Positions 12,841 through 30,438 of a stretch of 64,000 nucleotides of DNA are shown in pieces. The stretch is from the NCBI GenBank assembly GCA_016793885.1, contig JAEUHE010000032.1, positions 62,001-126,000 on the forward strand, read 5' to 3'. Position numbers and translations under genes: made by a program. The first letter of the stretch is position 1. Every line of letters starts with the position of its first letter. Source of the DNA: Verrucomicrobiales bacterium. GTDB taxonomy: Bacteria > Verrucomicrobiota > Verrucomicrobiia > Limisphaerales > UBA11320. Under the pieces are notes generated by a model, which did not search any database, was not told where the DNA came from, and worked only from the letters and a program-made list of their open reading frames with translations.

Positions 12841-13169
12841 ACGCGCGATCTCACATCGGTGCCGCCTCCGCCTGAAGGCGGAACTCCGTTCGGGGGCCGA
12901 GGCCTTGGGGTATGGAGTTCCTGCTTTAGCAGGTCCCCGCGCGCGATCTCATATCGGTGCCGCCTCCGCCTGAAGGCGGAACTCCGTACGGGGACCGAGG
13001 CCTTGGGGTATGGAGTTCCTGCTTTAGCAGGTGCCCGCGCGCGATCTCACTTCGGTGCCCCGTCCGCCTGAAGGCGGAACTCCGTACGGGGGACTGAGGC
13101 CTTGGGGTATGGAGTTCCTGCTTTAGCAGGTCCCCGCGCACGATCTCACTTCGGTGCCCCGTCCGCCCT
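12841..13169. repeat. Tandem repeat of 98-99 bp, three copies plus a partial fourth
   Basis: Units start at about 12843, 12941, 13039 and 13137 with GCGCGATCTCA-like sequence. Each unit holds two hairpins, CCGCCTGAAGGCGG and CCTGCTTTAGCAGG, and a longer inverted pair GGAACTCC...GGAGTTCC that brackets CGTACGGGG. The last partial unit runs up to the stop codon of the CvpA-like gene at 13168. Copies differ by a few substitutions. Open frames through this stretch repeat the same peptide and are not genes. Confidence 0.9.
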
Positions 13170-16220: not shown

Positions 16221-20588
<4,368 letters not shown>

Positions 20589-20715
20589 GATATCCCTCGG
20601 GGGACTCCTAAGCTTCTAGCCTGAAACCCGCGAAAAGCAAGCTGTGGTTCCAGGTCAGGCGTCAGTTCTGAATCGTTTCCCGTAAGAGGTTACCCCCAAT
20701 CTCGTAGAGGAGTGT

Positions 20716-20726
20716 GTAATCGTTAC
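20716..20726. promoter_or_regulatory. Palindrome GTAATCGTTAC upstream of the C39-like gene
   Basis: GTAA and TTAC flank TCG about 65 bp before the ATG. The same 11 bases and about 80 bp around them recur upstream of the decayed copy of this gene at 28403-28413. Conservation with the gene suggests an operator or other control site, but no regulator is known. Confidence 0.35.
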
Positions 20727-20790
20727 GGGATAAGCCCTCTGTTGTGCATGGGGTAGACCCGAAATCACCAGAACCCAAAACATAAATTTT

Positions 20791-22812
20791 ATGCTTCACT
20801 CATCTCGATCTCAGCCCGCCCCCAGCCGGGGAACAGCGCCTGTTTACCCCAGGCAAAGCCATTCGCGCTTCCGACGCTGGCTCAGCGCAATCCTAACCAC
20901 GACCTGCGTGGCGCTCACGGCCCAGGCCGAAACCGTAACCCTGCAGTATGAAATGGCGCCCAGCTTGAACGGACCCTGGAGCAAGGTAGATATGAATGCG
21001 CTGGTCGTCCATCCCGACGGCACCACGACCGTGGATTCGCAGCTGCCCAAGACCTATTTCCGGCTTCAAATCCTTCAGAATGGCCAACAAGGCAGTTTCC
21101 CAATTCTGCCCCTGGCCGATCTGCCGCCTCGCGTGCTGGACTTAGCCAAAGCCCAGCTCGGCCGGATCTCAGGAAACTCGAACCTCTTCAATGGCGAATG
21201 GTCCGAGATTGCCATCTCGCCCTTCGTCTGTCCCGTAGGAGATCCCTCGGGCGGGGCCGGCAGTGGGCTGGTGGAACTGAAACTGATTTCCAAGCCTAAG
21301 AATCCCCGTGCCATCCGAGGATTCCGCCCCAACGCTTCAGATGACGAGTCGTGCGATCGAGGTTTTCTGCTCATGTCACTCGACCGGAGTAACCTACCGC
21401 TTCTGGAATTCAGCACGGAAGGTCTAACCAAGGGTGAGCAATTGCTGAAACGATGCGGCACCCAAACGCCGGCCAAGATTCTGCGGTTCAGCCCGACCTT
21501 CTGGGCAGCGGAAGACGCTAACGGCCGTCTCATTGGCAACCAAGGCACTGAACCCTTCTTCATCCCCCATGCCTACTCCAATATCGTTAACCGACGATTC
21601 ACCGGCGTGATCGACTCCGAAACGGGAGTCAGCAATGTCCCCGCCAAGCCCACCGGCATCCGCAATCAGCCCTATCGTAGCTACGCTGAAATGAAACGGG
21701 ACTTCCAGGTCAACCCCGTCATCGAGACCATGCGGAAACGCCGCGCCGAATATGCCCGGCTTCAGTGGGATCTGGAGGATGGAAAACAGCCGCAAATCCT
21801 TCAGGTGCGCGTCGGCCAGTCCGTTTCGCTACTCCCCGGAAAACAGGTGGACGATGTTACCCTTCATTGGGAGGAACCCCGCAGCCTCGCCGACGTCTCC
21901 CCGATTCCCCGTTTGGGCGGAATCCGGGTCCTCGGCCTCATCCCCGGCAGCGCGCCACTCATTGTTCGAATCGATGAAAAGCTGGAGCAATACGTTCTCC
22001 AGGTCCTGCCGGCCGGGATCGTCGGCGGACTTCAGCCCTCCCTCGCGGGAATCGAAGCCCCTCACTGGGAGACCAAGGTCGAAGCGTATGCGGGCAACTG
22101 GTCCGATCAACGTCATTGGTATCAGTTGCGAGACAGCTCGGACTGGTGCGATTTGGTAGGCTGTGGACCCACCGCGCTGGCCATGTTGTTCGGATGGTGG
22201 GATGCGAAGGGCGTTCCGAGCGCTTTCTACAAGTCTCTGACCAGCTTCGAGTCGATGAGCCAATCGGATGCACCAGCGGATCTCTCCACCAGCGGCCGAA
22301 AAGCCATCGTTCGCGGTGCCTACAAGATGCTGCACGAACAATGTGATGTGATTTGCAATCCCTTCGGCGATGATGGGGCAACGCTGCCGGAAGATCTCAT
22401 CGAGGGTTACTACAGCTATGTCCACCAGGTGAGCAGCGGGATTGGACTCGGCACGATTATGTTCTCGGGTGTTAACAAACCTCTGGTGGGACATAGCTGC
22501 AGCTGGGCCTACGATTTCTGGGGTGATGATTGGGAAACCTCCGGCAGCCGCGTGGCAACCGGAATCAAGAACGGTCGTCCCGGGGTGATCGGTCTCGGAT
22601 GGCTCTGGCACTACGCCGTCGCCTACGGCTACATCCGCGAGGAATTGGTCGCGGACCTGGGCAACGGCGAGATTAATTTGGGCACACGCCGCTGGCTCAA
22701 GTGCAATGAGGGATGGAAGAATAGCAGTCCGTCCTGGTATAGCGCCCACGATGTCTTCCTAGGCCTCACCACCCGGATGTGGCAGAAGAACACGCCCCAC
22801 AACCCGAACTGA
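20791..22812 (+). CDS. Exported C39-like cysteine peptidase family protein
   Basis: A 673-residue protein with an N-terminal signal region (WLSAILTTTCVALTAQAE). About 420 residues of unassigned, partly beta-rich sequence follow, including MLxxL-poor segments and LQVRVGQSVSLLPGKQVDDV. The C-terminal part is C39-like: DLVGCGPTALAMLFGWW places the nucleophile at Cys458, and WLWHYAVAYGY places the catalytic His at about 607. C39-like peptidases in other bacteria process exported peptides or act as toxins; the target here is unknown. A partial, decayed copy lies 6 kb downstream. A strong terminator follows the stop codon. Confidence 0.8.
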   Translation: MLHSSRSQPAPSRGTAPVYPRQSHSRFRRWLSAILTTTCVALTAQAETVTLQYEMAPSLNGPWSKVDMNALVVHPDGTTTVDSQLPKTYFRLQILQNGQQGSFPILPLADLPPRVLDLAKAQLGRISGNSNLFNGEWSEIAISPFVCPVGDPSGGAGSGLVELKLISKPKNPRAIRGFRPNASDDESCDRGFLLMSLDRSNLPLLEFSTEGLTKGEQLLKRCGTQTPAKILRFSPTFWAAEDANGRLIGNQGTEPFFIPHAYSNIVNRRFTGVIDSETGVSNVPAKPTGIRNQPYRSYAEMKRDFQVNPVIETMRKRRAEYARLQWDLEDGKQPQILQVRVGQSVSLLPGKQVDDVTLHWEEPRSLADVSPIPRLGGIRVLGLIPGSAPLIVRIDEKLEQYVLQVLPAGIVGGLQPSLAGIEAPHWETKVEAYAGNWSDQRHWYQLRDSSDWCDLVGCGPTALAMLFGWWDAKGVPSAFYKSLTSFESMSQSDAPADLSTSGRKAIVRGAYKMLHEQCDVICNPFGDDGATLPEDLIEGYYSYVHQVSSGIGLGTIMFSGVNKPLVGHSCSWAYDFWGDDWETSGSRVATGIKNGRPGVIGLGWLWHYAVAYGYIREELVADLGNGEINLGTRRWLKCNEGWKNSSPSWYSAHDVFLGLTTRMWQKNTPHNPN

Positions 22813-22832
22813 AAGTGTCGGGTGATCGGGCC

Positions 22833-22866
22833 AAGCGCGGCGGGACCATCCCGCCGCGCTTTTGTT
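22833..22866 (+). terminator. Intrinsic terminator of the C39-like gene
   Basis: AGCGCGGCGGGA (22834-22845) pairs perfectly with TCCCGCCGCGCT (22849-22860) around a 3-base loop and is followed by TTTGTTTG. The same hairpin, with a changed loop, is retained after the decayed copy at 29454. Confidence 0.9.
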
Positions 22867-23133
22867 TGCACCGGGGAATCGGGACTATCCGCCCGTCGGA
22901 CTTGTCCCCGGTCGGCACTCTAGCATCCAGGATCAGAACCGCTGCCCCCCCGGATGACACTTGCAGGGCGGCAAAATCCGACTAGGCTAGCAGCGTGATC
23001 ACCCTGATGCGTTTGGCCACCGCGAGCCCCATGCCCTTCACGCAGAACGCATGGCGCTACGAGCTCTCTCCGCATCAACAGGTTCCAGAACGCTGGTTCA
23101 ACTGCGGCGAGTCTCTATGACACTCTTCTAACC
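22867..23133. other. Gene-free stretch before the DUF1549/DUF1553 gene
   Basis: No gene is supported here. The phrase GTCGGACTTGTCCCC at 22894 is found again at 31676. A small open frame (GTG at 22995 to TGA at 23120, 41 codons) was considered and not accepted. Confidence 0.5.
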
Positions 23134-26100: not shown

Positions 26101-26166
26101 TTCCTGGCATTCGGAGATTTCTGTCACGCGCTGTTAAACTCGAGCGAATTCCTTTATGTCGAGTAA
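23134..26166 (+). CDS. DUF1549/DUF1553 protein with LamG-like insertion
   Basis: A 1010-residue exported protein of the family abundant in Planctomycetota and Verrucomicrobiota. After a signal-like segment (VLMVAVLASTVTSLSA) comes DUF1549, with RRLYFDLWGLPPTPE, HWARHWLDLVRYADS and a CARCHDHKFDP motif (CxxCH) near 268-278. DUF1553 follows from about 465 (RRAALANWITRPDHP, RVMVNRVWQYHFG, VTSHTYRQ, LLNSAFMQEKA). A LamG/concanavalin A-like domain of about 230 residues is inserted at about 755-985, before the normal DUF1553 ending FGDFCHALLNSSEFLYVE. It overlaps the DUF1501 gene by 11 bp. The pair is thought to act in the periplasm, often in polysaccharide-use clusters; the reaction is not known. 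Confidence 0.9.
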   Translation: MRKGLLVWFPSRAPGNSRPRMVDAPSHEVGAGPGWPPPSWCQRVLMVAVLASTVTSLSAVTPTPTPPWWTSRSIQKPPVPKPQGTECRNEIDAFIQATLRSHQLSPSREANRGTLIRRLYFDLWGLPPTPEAVRAFEQDPAPDAYERLVNDLLNSPHYGEHWARHWLDLVRYADSDGYRIDDFRPNAWRYRDYVIRSLNQDKPYNRFVQEQLAGDELWPEDTDALIATGFLRHGIYEYNNRDAVAQWSTLLNDITDTTAEVFLGVGLQCARCHDHKFDPLPQSDYYRFQAFFSALLPQEDTPVATPAERAAYVARLDLWMEKTESIRSQIREIESPPRQSASDDLRSKFPPETQALMRKPVDQRTPYEHQIAELAYRQITYAYERLTPRLRPEEKEKLTALRKQLAEYDSLLPSPLPMAMTAKDVGPTPPPTRIPRHPDTVIDPGFLSVIAPGPAQVNPLPQSPRSTGRRAALANWITRPDHPLTPRVMVNRVWQYHFGKGLVATSSDFGKLGEPPTHPELLDWLAAEFVSRGWSLKHLHRLMVTSHTYRQATAPSEEVVVESASSRTTPAPTKGPDQAEADRWQHGQTVDPENRLLWHGQARRLSAEQLRDALLLASGELKPGSPGPSVDASKAYRSIYGKVLRNTRDPLQDTFDAPQNFTSTCSRDATTTPIQSLLLLNSAFMQEKARTIAARIDGRFPNQASDRIRAAYQTLLGRAPTPSEIREAEEFLESQERLVDPELAVSAAASFASAKIPYRDGRAAVIQLKGGNDNLDAPLTRPYPAGSKTIEGFVLLRSYAEDASSRTILAGHDAISASPVWALAVTGKKFRGKPQSLVMEIASANSGEPSIVASELVIRLDRPYFVAAALDPVGGMVTFHAKDLSNEDEPLATTQVTVPSGLSDRTLTALTFGASRNGLQRWDGLIDDVRITRGLIGVEELQLRRPGTGKDTLGFWAFEPKPSYFKDRSALANDIEWRTAPPSTRLTAQFLAFGDFCHALLNSSEFLYVE

Positions 26167-27610
26167 CCCTTTGAGCACACCGAAAGGATCTCAGGCAGAT
26201 TCCGTTTTTTTGGGCCGACGCGAATTCCTCCGGCGCTCAGGGGGCGGTTTCGGCGCCTTAGCCCTCGCCCACCTGCTCCAGTCCGACGCGGTGGGCGCCA
26301 TGATGCCAGGGGTGAAAGCTTCTGCCCGTCTCCCGCATCAAAGGCCGCGGGCTAAAAATGTCATCTTCCTGTTCATGGAAGGCGGCCCGAGCCATCTCGA
26401 TACCTTCGATCCAAAACCGCTGCTCAACACGCTGGCCGGCCAGCGGATTCCTCCCAGCTTCAAGCGGGTGATCACTTCGATGGGCGAGTTTCACTCTCCG
26501 ATCCTCGGCAGCAAGCGAGCCTGGAAACAACACGGGAGCGGAGGACTCTGGATTTCCGACTGGCTCCCGGAGATCGCCAGCTGCGCCGATGACTTGGCCG
26601 TGGTGCGTTCCTGCTGGGCGGAGGGTATCAATCACTCCTCGGGCATCTGCCAGATGAACACCGGATCCATCTTGGCCGGCCGGCCATCGCTCGGCAGTTG
26701 GGTGAGCTATGGCCTGGGAACGTTCAACCAAAACCTGCCGAGCTTCGTCGTGATGCAGGATGCGCCGGCTCAGGTCGTCAACGGACCGCGCAACTGGGGA
26801 TCCGGGTTTATGCCCGCCATGTATCAGGGCGTCCGCATGCACATCGATTCGGAACCGATTCCCAACCTGAACGTGCCGGAAGGAACCACCGACGCCCAGC
26901 AGCGCCAGAAGCTCGCCTTCCTCGACCAACTCAACCGCCGCTTCGCCGCCCAACACCCCGACCAGACGGAACTGGAGGCTCGGATCGCGAGCTACGAGTT
27001 AGCGTTCCGAATGCAGAGCGAAGCCCCCGAAGCGGTCAATCTTGCTCAGGAAACCCAAGCTACCCAGATGCTCTACGGCATGGATCGCCCGGAAACGCAG
27101 AGCTTTGGCAAGATGTGCCTCATGGCGCGACGGCTGGTCGAGCGCGGTGTGCGATTCGTTCAACTCTACCATGGGGCTGGCAACCGCTGGGATGCCCACG
27201 AGAAAATCGAAAAGAATCACAGCGAGCAGTGCCGGGCGATGGATAAGCCAGTGGCCGGCTTGCTGAAAGATCTCAAGTCGCGGGGTCTGCTCGATGAAAC
27301 CCTGGTCATCTGGGGCGGTGAGTTTGGTCGTACTCCGATGTCCGAAAAGGGCGACGGTCGTGACCACAACCCCAGCGGGTTCACCATGTGGATGGCCGGT
27401 GGCGGAGTGAAGGGCGGCCAGACGATCGGCAGCACCGACGACTTGGGGCTGCACGCAGTCGAGAACCGCATGCATGTCCACGACCTTCATGCGACCATCC
27501 TCTGGCTCCTGGGAATCGATCACACCCAGCTCACCTACCGATTCAAGGGCCGCCCCGAACGAGCGACGATGAACGAGGGGGAAGTCTTCCAGCCCATCGC
27601 AGCTTCCTAG
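26156..27610 (+). CDS. DUF1501 family Tat-exported protein (sulfatase-like fold)
   Basis: A 484-residue protein with a twin-arginine signal GRREFLRRSGGGFGALALAH at about 20-39. The mature part shows the DUF1501 features KNVIFLFMEGGPSHLDTFDPK, WLPEIASCADDLAVVRSC, NHSSGICQMNTGSI and VIWGGEFGRTPMSE. The family shares the alkaline phosphatase/sulfatase fold and metal-site positions but its substrate is not established. It partners with the upstream DUF1549/DUF1553 protein in nearly every genome that has both, and here the genes overlap by 11 bp. Confidence 0.93.
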   Translation: MSSNPLSTPKGSQADSVFLGRREFLRRSGGGFGALALAHLLQSDAVGAMMPGVKASARLPHQRPRAKNVIFLFMEGGPSHLDTFDPKPLLNTLAGQRIPPSFKRVITSMGEFHSPILGSKRAWKQHGSGGLWISDWLPEIASCADDLAVVRSCWAEGINHSSGICQMNTGSILAGRPSLGSWVSYGLGTFNQNLPSFVVMQDAPAQVVNGPRNWGSGFMPAMYQGVRMHIDSEPIPNLNVPEGTTDAQQRQKLAFLDQLNRRFAAQHPDQTELEARIASYELAFRMQSEAPEAVNLAQETQATQMLYGMDRPETQSFGKMCLMARRLVERGVRFVQLYHGAGNRWDAHEKIEKNHSEQCRAMDKPVAGLLKDLKSRGLLDETLVIWGGEFGRTPMSEKGDGRDHNPSGFTMWMAGGGVKGGQTIGSTDDLGLHAVENRMHVHDLHATILWLLGIDHTQLTYRFKGRPERATMNEGEVFQPIAAS

Positions 27611-27799
27611 TTGCCACCACCGGTGCCGAGAACCCACCGGGTTCAAAGGGATTAGCTGGGGATAGAAGGCTGCTGCATTACATACGGCCCAGCTCGGTCG
27701 CGAAGCGTCTTGGACTGCTGTAGCCCTCTACAGCTTTTCAGTGCCCCCGGAGGGGGATCCCGGCTACGCCGAGGGGACTAAAGCGGTAGAGGTCTCTGA
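27611..27799. repeat. Gene-free stretch with degenerate dispersed-repeat copies
   Basis: GAGAACCCACCGGGTTCAAA at 27628 onward is a diverged copy of the repeat found at 42180, 44780 and 54933. A small hairpin-bearing element with CTGTAGCCCTCTACAG and CCCCCGGAGGGGG follows. No gene is supported. Confidence 0.55.
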
Positions 27800-28088
27800 G
27801 CATTACCCACAACTTCTTCAACCAGATGTTAGAATCCCACAGGGATTCCGCCTCAAAGCCCAGGGTTGGCGCGACTCAGGAGCGCCTACCCTGGGTTAGT
27901 CGTTGTTTTCTGACAACCCCATCGCGGGTTGCGTCTGGATCAGCTAAACGCCCCAAGGGACCGCAACCCACCATGGGGTTGTGAATTCTATTGGCTTTTC
28001 CCAGGGTAGCTCGTTCCTCGCAACCCTGGGCTTTGAGGCGCAATCCCGTTGGGATAGGGAGGAAGCCCTCCGAACTTGTGGGTAATGC
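27800..28088. repeat. Long imperfect palindrome (about 290 bp)
   Basis: The outer arms are GCATTACCCACAA (27800-27812) and TTGTGGGTAATGC (28076-28088), an exact 13-bp match. Further in, 20 bp match perfectly: CGCCTCAAAGCCCAGGGTTG (27849-27868) and its complement at 28021-28040. A third pair sits in the centre around ACAACCCCATCG and ATGGGGTTGT. Each arm also forms its own hairpin through CCCAGGGT and ACCCTGGG. No transposase or other gene lies inside. Confidence 0.9.
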
Positions 28089-28363
28089 TTAGGTCGTGCC
28101 ACCGCGGTCCGTAGGGCGATCGCGCTCTCCGTTACCGTGCGAAGAAGTGTGGCTCTATGGTCTGCGCGTGGCATGCCACCGCTTTTCCTATACGCCTCGG
28201 CAAACCCCATTCGCTCATCTGCCCCCACACACGGTCGCCTGGGGTTTCGGCGAGGCGCGAACGAAAGGCGGAGACATGTCTCCGCAGTCCATAGACTTAC
28301 CTGGCTGCCCCGATTGCGATTGCGACTGCGAAACGAACCCCCACCCCAACTCTTTCTTGCCAT
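28089..28363. repeat. Degenerate dispersed-repeat segment
   Basis: GTGCCACC near 28096 and the 18-base palindrome GCGGAGACATGTCTCCGC at 28268-28285 followed by GTCCATAG are the two ends of the element seen more completely at 54728 and 59630. The middle is unlike those copies. GATTGC repeats follow at about 28313. No gene is supported. Confidence 0.55.
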
Positions 28364-29440
28364 TCCACGTAAGAGGTTCTCGTAAATCTCGTAGAAAGGT
28401 GTGTAATCGTTACGGGATAAGCCCTTTGTTGTGCTTGGGGCAGACCCGAATTCACTTTCCTCGAGTTCAGCACCGAGGGATTAACCAAGGGAGAGCAGCT
28501 GCTCAAGAGATGCGGCACTCAGTCTCCCGACAAGATCCTGCGCGTCAGCCCCACTTTTTGGGCTGCAGAAGACTCCGCCGGCCGCCTCATCGCCAACCAG
28601 GGCACCGAGCCCTTCTTCATCCCTCACGCGTATTCGAACATCGTCAACCGACGATTCACCGGGGAGATTGATTCTGAAACGGGCGTCAGCAATGTCCCAG
28701 CCAAGCCCACCGGTATCCGGAATCAGCCCTATCGCAGCTACGCTGAGATGAAGCGGGACTTTCTGGTCAACCCCATCATCGAGACGATGCGCAAACGACG
28801 TGCCGAATATGCCCGGCTCCAATGGGATCTTGAGGATGGCAAACAACCCACGATCCTCCAGGTGCGCGTCGGCCAGACGGTTTCACTGCTCCCCGGCAAA
28901 CAGGTGGATGACGTCACCCTTCACTGGGAGGAGCCTCGAAGCTTGGCTGAGATCACCCCAGTTTCCCGTCTCGGCGGGATCCGGGTGCTAGGTCGCATCC
29001 CTGGAAGTGCACCGCTGATCGTGCGCATTGATGAAAAACTCGAACAGTATGTCCTGCAGGTCCTCCCTGCAGGTATCGTGGGCGGCCTCCAGCCCTCACT
29101 CGCAGGCATCGAGGCACCGCATTGGGAAACCAAGGTGGAAGCCTACGCCGGCAACTGGTCGGACCAGCGTCATTGGTATCAGCTGCGAGACAGCTCGGAC
29201 TGGTGCGATTTGGTAGGCTGTGGGCCCACCGCGCTGGCCATGTTGCTCGGATGGTGGGATGCAAAGGTCGTTCCGAGCGCTTTCTACAAATCGCTGACCA
29301 GCTTCGAGTCGATGAGCCAGTCGGATGCACCGGCGGATATGGAGACCTCCGCTCGCCGATCGATCGTCCGTGGCGCTTACAAAATGCTTCATGAGCAGTG
29401 CGATAGAAGAACACGCCCCACAACCCGAACTGAGAATCGG
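28364..29440 (+). pseudogene. Decayed partial copy of the C39-like peptidase gene with two internal deletions
   Basis: Positions 28364-28445 match the 80 bp before the ATG of the intact gene, including GTAATCGTTAC. The match then jumps to codon 203 or so (LEFSTEGLTKGEQLLKRCGT) and continues at high similarity to the codons for MLHEQCD (about 29403). It then jumps to the last 10 codons and the terminator. So about 600 bp at the front (including the start codon and signal peptide) and about 440 bp holding the catalytic His are gone. The nucleophile region GCGPTALAMLLGWW remains. The original stop is out of frame. A frame from 28748 runs on into downstream DNA and is not a real protein. Confidence 0.88.
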
Positions 29441-29453
29441 AGCAAATCGAATC

Positions 29454-29486
29454 AAGCGCGGCGGGCTCGTCCCGCCGCGCTTTTTA
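29454..29486 (+). terminator. Terminator hairpin retained after the decayed copy
   Basis: AAGCGCGGCGGG (29454-29465) pairs with CCCGCCGCGCTT (29471-29482), followed by more T residues. The stem is the same as that after the intact gene, while the loop differs (CTCGT here, CCA there). Confidence 0.85.
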
Positions 29487-29583
29487 TTTGCACGAGGAAA
29501 TGGGGACTCGAGACAGATTTCCAAACCCTTTGTCGGAAGCTTCGTCGGAAACTTTGTCGAGTCCGATGCCGGGAACGAGAAGA

Positions 29584-29673
29584 CCACCTACCACCTACCA
29601 CCTACCACCTACCACCTACCACCTACCACCTACCACCTACCACCTACCACCTACCACCTACCACCTACCACCT
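29584..29673. repeat. Heptamer satellite, about 13 copies
   Basis: Perfect 7-bp units CCACCTA fill 29584-29673, and two degenerate units follow (to about 29691). The units lie between the decayed peptidase copy and the 3' end of the TauE gene. Slipped-strand length change is likely. Confidence 0.95.
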
Positions 29674-29688
29674 CTACCACCCACCACC

Positions 29689-30438
29689 TCACGACCCAAA
29701 AATCAACCGAGCCGCAGCTACCACCGCCAACACCAGCACCAAGCTGTCAAACCACTTCTGCGGGAGCCGCGCCACCAAGTGGCGTCCCAGGAAAAGCCCG
29801 CCGATGATGCAGGGTAACAGCAACAGATTGAAGCTAAGCGTCGAACCGCTGATCAACCCCAGCTGCAAGCTAAACGGAACCTTGAGCAGATTCAGTATCA
29901 GAAAGAACCAAGCTCCCGTGCCGATAAACGCGTCCTTGGGCAAGCTCACCGCCAAAAGATAGAGCGCCATCACCGGCCCAGCGGCATTGGCCATCATGGT
30001 GGTCACCCCCGCCAGGAATCCCATAGTCCAGGCAAACGGAATGGAATGCGGAACTTGGTTGAACCAGCCCGGACGCCAGTGCCGTATCAACTGGAGCAAT
30101 GCGAGTGTCAAAACGATGCCGCCGATCAACGGACCGAACTTGGCCCCTGGCAATCGTCCCATGAGATACCATCCAACAGCGACGCCCACCAACGCCGGCG
30201 GCAAGGTGCGAAGGACATACACCCATTGCGCATTTCGACGGAATAGCCACACCGCCCCGATGTCACCCGCAATCAACATCGGCAACACCACACCTGTGGA
30301 AGCCGCTCCCGGGAACAGGGACGCAAACACCACCACATGAAACAGGCTGATGCCGGGCAGACCGCTCTTGGATACACCCACGCCGGTGGCGGCGATCAAA
30401 GCCATCAGCCATTCGGAAGGTGTAAAGACCGGCAACAT
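29689..30438 (-). CDS. TauE/SafE family sulfite exporter-like membrane protein
   Basis: A 249-residue protein with about eight membrane spans and the family pattern GVGVSKSGLPGISLFHV near the start and GFLAGVTTMMANAAGPVMALYLL in the second half. The two halves are related, as in other TauE/SafE anion exporters (sulfite, taurine-derived sulfonate or similar). The ATG at 30438 is chosen; an upstream TTG at 30468 would add ten basic residues. The 3' end lies right beside the heptamer satellite. Substrate is unknown. Confidence 0.88.
   Translation of the reverse strand: MLPVFTPSEWLMALIAATGVGVSKSGLPGISLFHVVVFASLFPGAASTGVVLPMLIAGDIGAVWLFRRNAQWVYVLRTLPPALVGVAVGWYLMGRLPGAKFGPLIGGIVLTLALLQLIRHWRPGWFNQVPHSIPFAWTMGFLAGVTTMMANAAGPVMALYLLAVSLPKDAFIGTGAWFFLILNLLKVPFSLQLGLISGSTLSFNLLLLPCIIGGLFLGRHLVARLPQKWFDSLVLVLAVVAAARLIFGS

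Follow-up and report, generated by a model that had tools for sequence, protein, structure and literature searches.

C39-like cysteine peptidases (PF13529; NF033920) have an upstream Gln followed in order by Cys, His and Asn/Asp. Bacterial pseudogenes that arise by partial deletion of a paralogue lose coding sequence and reading frame while retaining collinear blocks, and intrachromosomal gene conversion between paralogues is recognized as a bounded tract of excess synonymous similarity that constraint does not explain. Within the window (the whole stretch of 64,000 nucleotides analysed here), we compared an intact gene for a predicted C39-like peptidase, A, with a partial copy, B (28363-29508), that lies 7.6 kb away on the same strand. 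Like described pseudogenes of partially deleted paralogues, B has lost its start codon and the 3′ part of its coding region, is frameshifted and retains blocks collinear with A; it differs in that both of its outer ends are kept and in that its decay appears to be very recent relative to the age of the copy. B is very probably a pseudogene, the remains of a second copy of A that had long been maintained, with a history of old separation, probable gene conversion and recent loss in two pieces.

An intact C39-like gene and its truncated copy

The predicted product of A begins with a hydrophobic, signal-peptide-like segment (judged by eye rather than with a predictor), has a long N-terminal region that matches no Pfam family and ends in a C39-like domain carrying Q445, C458 (GCGPT), H607 (WHY) and N639 (NEGW). 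Among 11 homologues, Q445 and C458 are invariant and H607 and N639 nearly so. This Q - GCGPT - WHY - NEGW order fits the catalytic order of a papain-like C39 peptidase and suggests that these four residues are catalytic and that A encodes a secreted C39-like (papain-like) cysteine peptidase. Every profile score for the family lies under the curated cut-offs: NF033920 (NCBIfam, PA2778 family) gives E 0.0033 and 16.9 bits against a cut-off of 150, and PF13529, which leaves A itself unmatched, matches 4 of the 11 homologues at a best E of 0.017, with listed scores of 15.8 and 13.5 bits that fall under its cut-off of 24. Because the assignment comes from motifs and sub-threshold profile matches, A should be named C39-like and not a C39 family member. 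AlphaFold2 models of A, built from a 5-row alignment, and of its C-terminal domain, built from the single sequence, both had a mean pLDDT below 35 and are unusable, and a search of solved structures returned no relevant relative. The leader matched no known RNA element in Rfam, and the literature library searched contained no paper on C39 peptidases in Verrucomicrobia.

BLASTN alignment of 28300-29560 with 20600-22960 resolves B into three blocks that are collinear with A on the same strand (Table 1), as expected from the original prediction of a decayed copy interrupted by two jumps, and not into merely scattered similarity. The predicted extents hold to within a few bases, with the middle block beginning and ending at codons 205 and 519 of A instead of 203 and 518. 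The terminator is kept as proposed, and the coding tail consists of nine codons plus the stop, not ten codons, with similarity ending at about 29508. Block 2 has 92% amino acid identity to A, and block 3 opens with 29 nt, covering the last nine codons and the stop, that match A exactly; the terminator hairpins occupy 22833-22861 in A and 29454-29482 in B.

Table 1 Features of genes A and B, in positions of the window
Feature	Positions	Strand	Details
Leader block of A, common to B	20677-20768	+	86% over 93 columns (BLASTN)
Intact gene A	20791-22812	+	673-aa ORF, ATG at 20791
3′ end and terminator hairpin of A, common to B	22784-22886	+	80% over 104 columns
B block 1, retained leader	28363-28455	+	Versus 20677-20768, 86%, one gap, E 5e-23
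Deletion junction 1	28456-28459	+	About 634 bp gone; 4 bp assignable to neither side
B block 2, codons 205-519 of A	28460-29404	+	Versus 21403-22347, 773/945 (81.8%), free of gaps and stops
Tract of low synonymous divergence, probable gene conversion	29150-29338 (A: 22093-22281)	+	dS 0.31 versus 1.99 outside
Deletion junction 2	29404/29405	+	436 bp gone, frameshift
B block 3, nine terminal codons with stop (out of frame), plus terminator	29405-29508	+	Versus 22784-22886, 80%, 104 bp

Two pieces of A are missing from B: 634 bp at 20769-21402, which include the ATG, and 436 bp at 22348-22783, which include the His (H607) and Asn (N639) motifs. As 436 is not a multiple of 3, the last codons are retained in B out of frame. 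Loss of the start codon and this frameshifting deletion are the disabling changes in B relative to A. The conserved motifs bear out the proposal that B kept the nucleophile Cys (C458) and lost the His, and B has lost N639 as well, so that the Gln-Cys-His-Asn order present in A is incomplete. The earliest in-frame start in B is the ATG at 28748, codon 301 of A, and its open frame continues past junction 2 into unrelated sequence and then a 7-bp satellite array. A full-length copy trimmed twice, as originally proposed, is the best reading of these collinear blocks with retained outer ends; the ends indicate that B was probably full length before the deletions, whose order and number we infer from the alignment.

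Compared with A, junction 2 reads GAT/AGAAG (TGCGAT/AGAAGAAC in fuller context), without microhomology, and neither breakpoint has the convincing short direct repeats that had been suggested as a check. This reading of the breakpoints is weak, as the sequence of A stands in for that of ancestral B, and we therefore claim no deletion mechanism. In its own genome the B leader occurs at B and A only, apart from one 16-base chance match, and the B tail/terminator block occurs elsewhere at A only, so the blocks are not generic repeats; the A leader is absent from all other genomes of the order searched. A mobile element with an internally deleted derivative is ruled out, since leader and tail are found in the genome only at A and B.

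The neighbours of A and B include DUF1549, DUF1553 and DUF1501 genes, which are typical of Planctomycetes and Verrucomicrobia and are among the grounds for a Verrucomicrobia affiliation. The DUF1501 gene at 26156-27607 belongs to a very large family, with 57 matches at E 1e-80 in its own genome and 29-46 per genus relative at the same threshold. A 1455-aa ORF at 16221-20588 (−) contains a long low-complexity Gln/Gly-rich stretch and has no Pfam match, and a 98-bp tandem repeat (3.3 copies, 94% matches) occupies 12842-13167. Before B, a dispersed palindromic repeat of about 300 bp (27796-28114) is present in tens of genomic copies at about 90% identity, several of them at contig ends, with 35-nt arms (27834-27868 and 28021-28055) that are 91% complementary. 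Just 5′ of B, a short dispersed repeat (28255-28305) recurs at several places with 85-97% identity, in several cases close to a copy of the 300-bp repeat. After B, an ACCACCT satellite with about 15 units occupies 29583-29689, and about 20 further sites in the genome carry similar stretches. B thus sits between repeats, and its deletion junctions lie within sequence unique to A and B.

Synonymous divergence and a bounded tract around the Cys motif

Across block 2, A and B mismatch at 23, 12 and 137 first, second and third codon positions, and 133 codons differ synonymously as against 24 that alter the amino acid. This synonymous versus non-synonymous count had been proposed as a check; what it reveals, an old copy with recent decay, had not been foreseen, and follows from near-saturated synonymous divergence combined with 92% amino acid identity. 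In the core alignment dN is 0.047 and dS 1.31 (Nei-Gojobori), rising outside the tract at 29150-29338 to a dS of 1.99, a range in which the estimate is unreliable. At codons for unchanged amino acids 5′ of the tract, A and B share 46% codon identity; the neighbouring DUF1501 gene has 42-46% when species of the genus are compared, and A has 36% against its 52%-identical relative L017. The A-B split therefore appears to be about as old as the species of the genus, or the synonymous sites are near saturation. With synonymous sites so diverged and dN at 0.047, both copies were under strong purifying selection through that time, and these values do not suit a fresh duplicate pair.

A 189-bp tract around the nucleophile Cys motif departs from this pattern. 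Codon identity between A and B is 81% in the tract, versus 46% and 25% beside it, and shuffling matched the observed tract score in about 0.1% of trials with all codons (p 0.001) and about 0.2% with synonymous codons only (p 0.002). Codon-level constraint is an unlikely cause, as relatives have no matching peak: codon identity of A or B to three relatives is 38-50% within the tract, close to the 29-37% found 5′ of it. The excess synonymous similarity is thus bounded and unexplained by constraint, and the tract is best read as probable gene conversion between A and B, in either direction. The tract has since accumulated a dS of 0.31, which would place conversion well before the decay, while both genes were intact. 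As in described intrachromosomal conversion between paralogues, the low-dS tract lies between diverged copies in one genome; A and B differ in now being only about 80% identical in DNA outside it. Genes at an average protein similarity of 96.6% have been treated as becoming too divergent for homologous recombination (PMC3506625). Given this limit, the A-B exchange may have been a short patch or may have taken place when the copies were more alike.

Recent decay of B and origin of the second copy

Polarized with three relatives as outgroup, 12 amino acid differences fall on B, 6 on A and 6 are ambiguous, an excess on B that is not significant. Three of the changes on B alter conserved sites: A228D and F233V replace well-conserved residues, and G474V a glycine that does not vary among 11 homologues. 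In simulations of neutral drift, B acquired about 20 amino acid changes at 0.03 substitutions per site, with 31% of runs keeping the frame free of stops; at 0.05 the figures were 33 changes and 17%. Since neutral drift beyond about 0.03 substitutions per site would yield more amino acid changes than B carries, the fragment has been neutral for at most about that long, a few percent of its history, or is still selected. Neutrality is simpler, as B has lost the start codon, the signal region and both the His and the Asn motif.

In the pseudogene reading, the second copy may have arisen by duplication within this lineage or may have been transferred from a sister species that is not sampled. Acquisition of B (or A) as a xenologue never duplicated in this genome is a tentative alternative that overlaps in confidence with our preferred explanation, since it changes the origin step alone and keeps the decay. 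The synonymous divergence between A and B equals that between species of the genus, and homologues are patchily distributed across the families of the order, as transfer would predict. The shared leader and terminator, the 7.6-kb spacing in one orientation and the failure to find a donor in the genomes searched count against it. GC3 is also alike (0.69 in A, 0.70 in B) and gives B no foreign codon composition, although equal GC3 does not decide between duplication and transfer. At E 1e-20, homologues occur in 21 of 320 genomes of the order, the one carrying A and B included, most with long open frames, an observation that gives no support to the proposal of a duplicated family that is being lost. 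The nearest are full length and 49-51% identical (G287, the same record as L017; G100; G251). Within the genus, G001 and G003 contain matches of 35-40% identity, and none occurs in G002 or G004; in G004 the nearest homologue of the DUF1549/DUF1501 pair is flanked by neither A/B nor other window genes. The full-length second copy that the original prediction would have sought in related genomes was not found, intact or close, in its own genome, the 320 genomes of the order, an even draw of 384 genomes of the class, viral contigs or plasmids.

It is improbable that truncated B still works, either translated from the internal ATG at 28748 or as a sequence donor that converts A. Block 2, 945 bp without stop or gap and with low dN, could also be a fragment that selection still maintains, and the conversion tract itself could be taken as evidence of donation. 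However, translation could begin no earlier than codon 301 of A and would run past the second deletion into unrelated sequence and the satellite, the His and Asn motifs are missing, and conserved sites are altered. Moreover, its dS of 0.31 makes the tract older than the decay bound of about 0.03, so that both genes were intact when conversion took place. The related proposal that fragments are reused has no positive evidence; the tract predates the decay. It is very doubtful that truncated B acts as a silent partner exchanging sequence with A near the active-site Cys, the pair evolving by repeated short conversions. That B or its junctions are a misjoin in a fragmented assembly is highly implausible: the dispersed repeat before B, with copies at contig ends, and the satellite 3′ of B invite such an error, but 82% identity with near-saturated synonymous sites cannot arise by collapsing reads of A, and the junctions lie outside the repeats.

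Probable order of events at the A/B locus

In the pseudogene reading, A and B would have separated long ago, when a promoter-to-terminator unit was duplicated or a copy was acquired from a sister species. Strong purifying selection would have kept both functional for long enough that their synonymous sites diverged almost to saturation. Gene conversion would then have homogenized the stretch around the catalytic-Cys motif while both copies still functioned. Recently, B would have lost about 634 bp holding the start codon, signal region and N-terminal part, and also the 436 bp whose loss shifted the frame and removed the His and Asn motifs. The remaining fragment, whose first in-frame start is at codon 301 of A, is probably not expressed. 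The family of A comprises large, probably secreted C39-like proteins of the order that are poorly described, no Pfam or NCBIfam model reaching its cut-off. B is an unremarkable dead gene whose history is unusually easy to read: it says little on new biology, and its added value is the order of events, a clear small case in which the age of a copy, conversion and the time of decay can be ordered from one genome.
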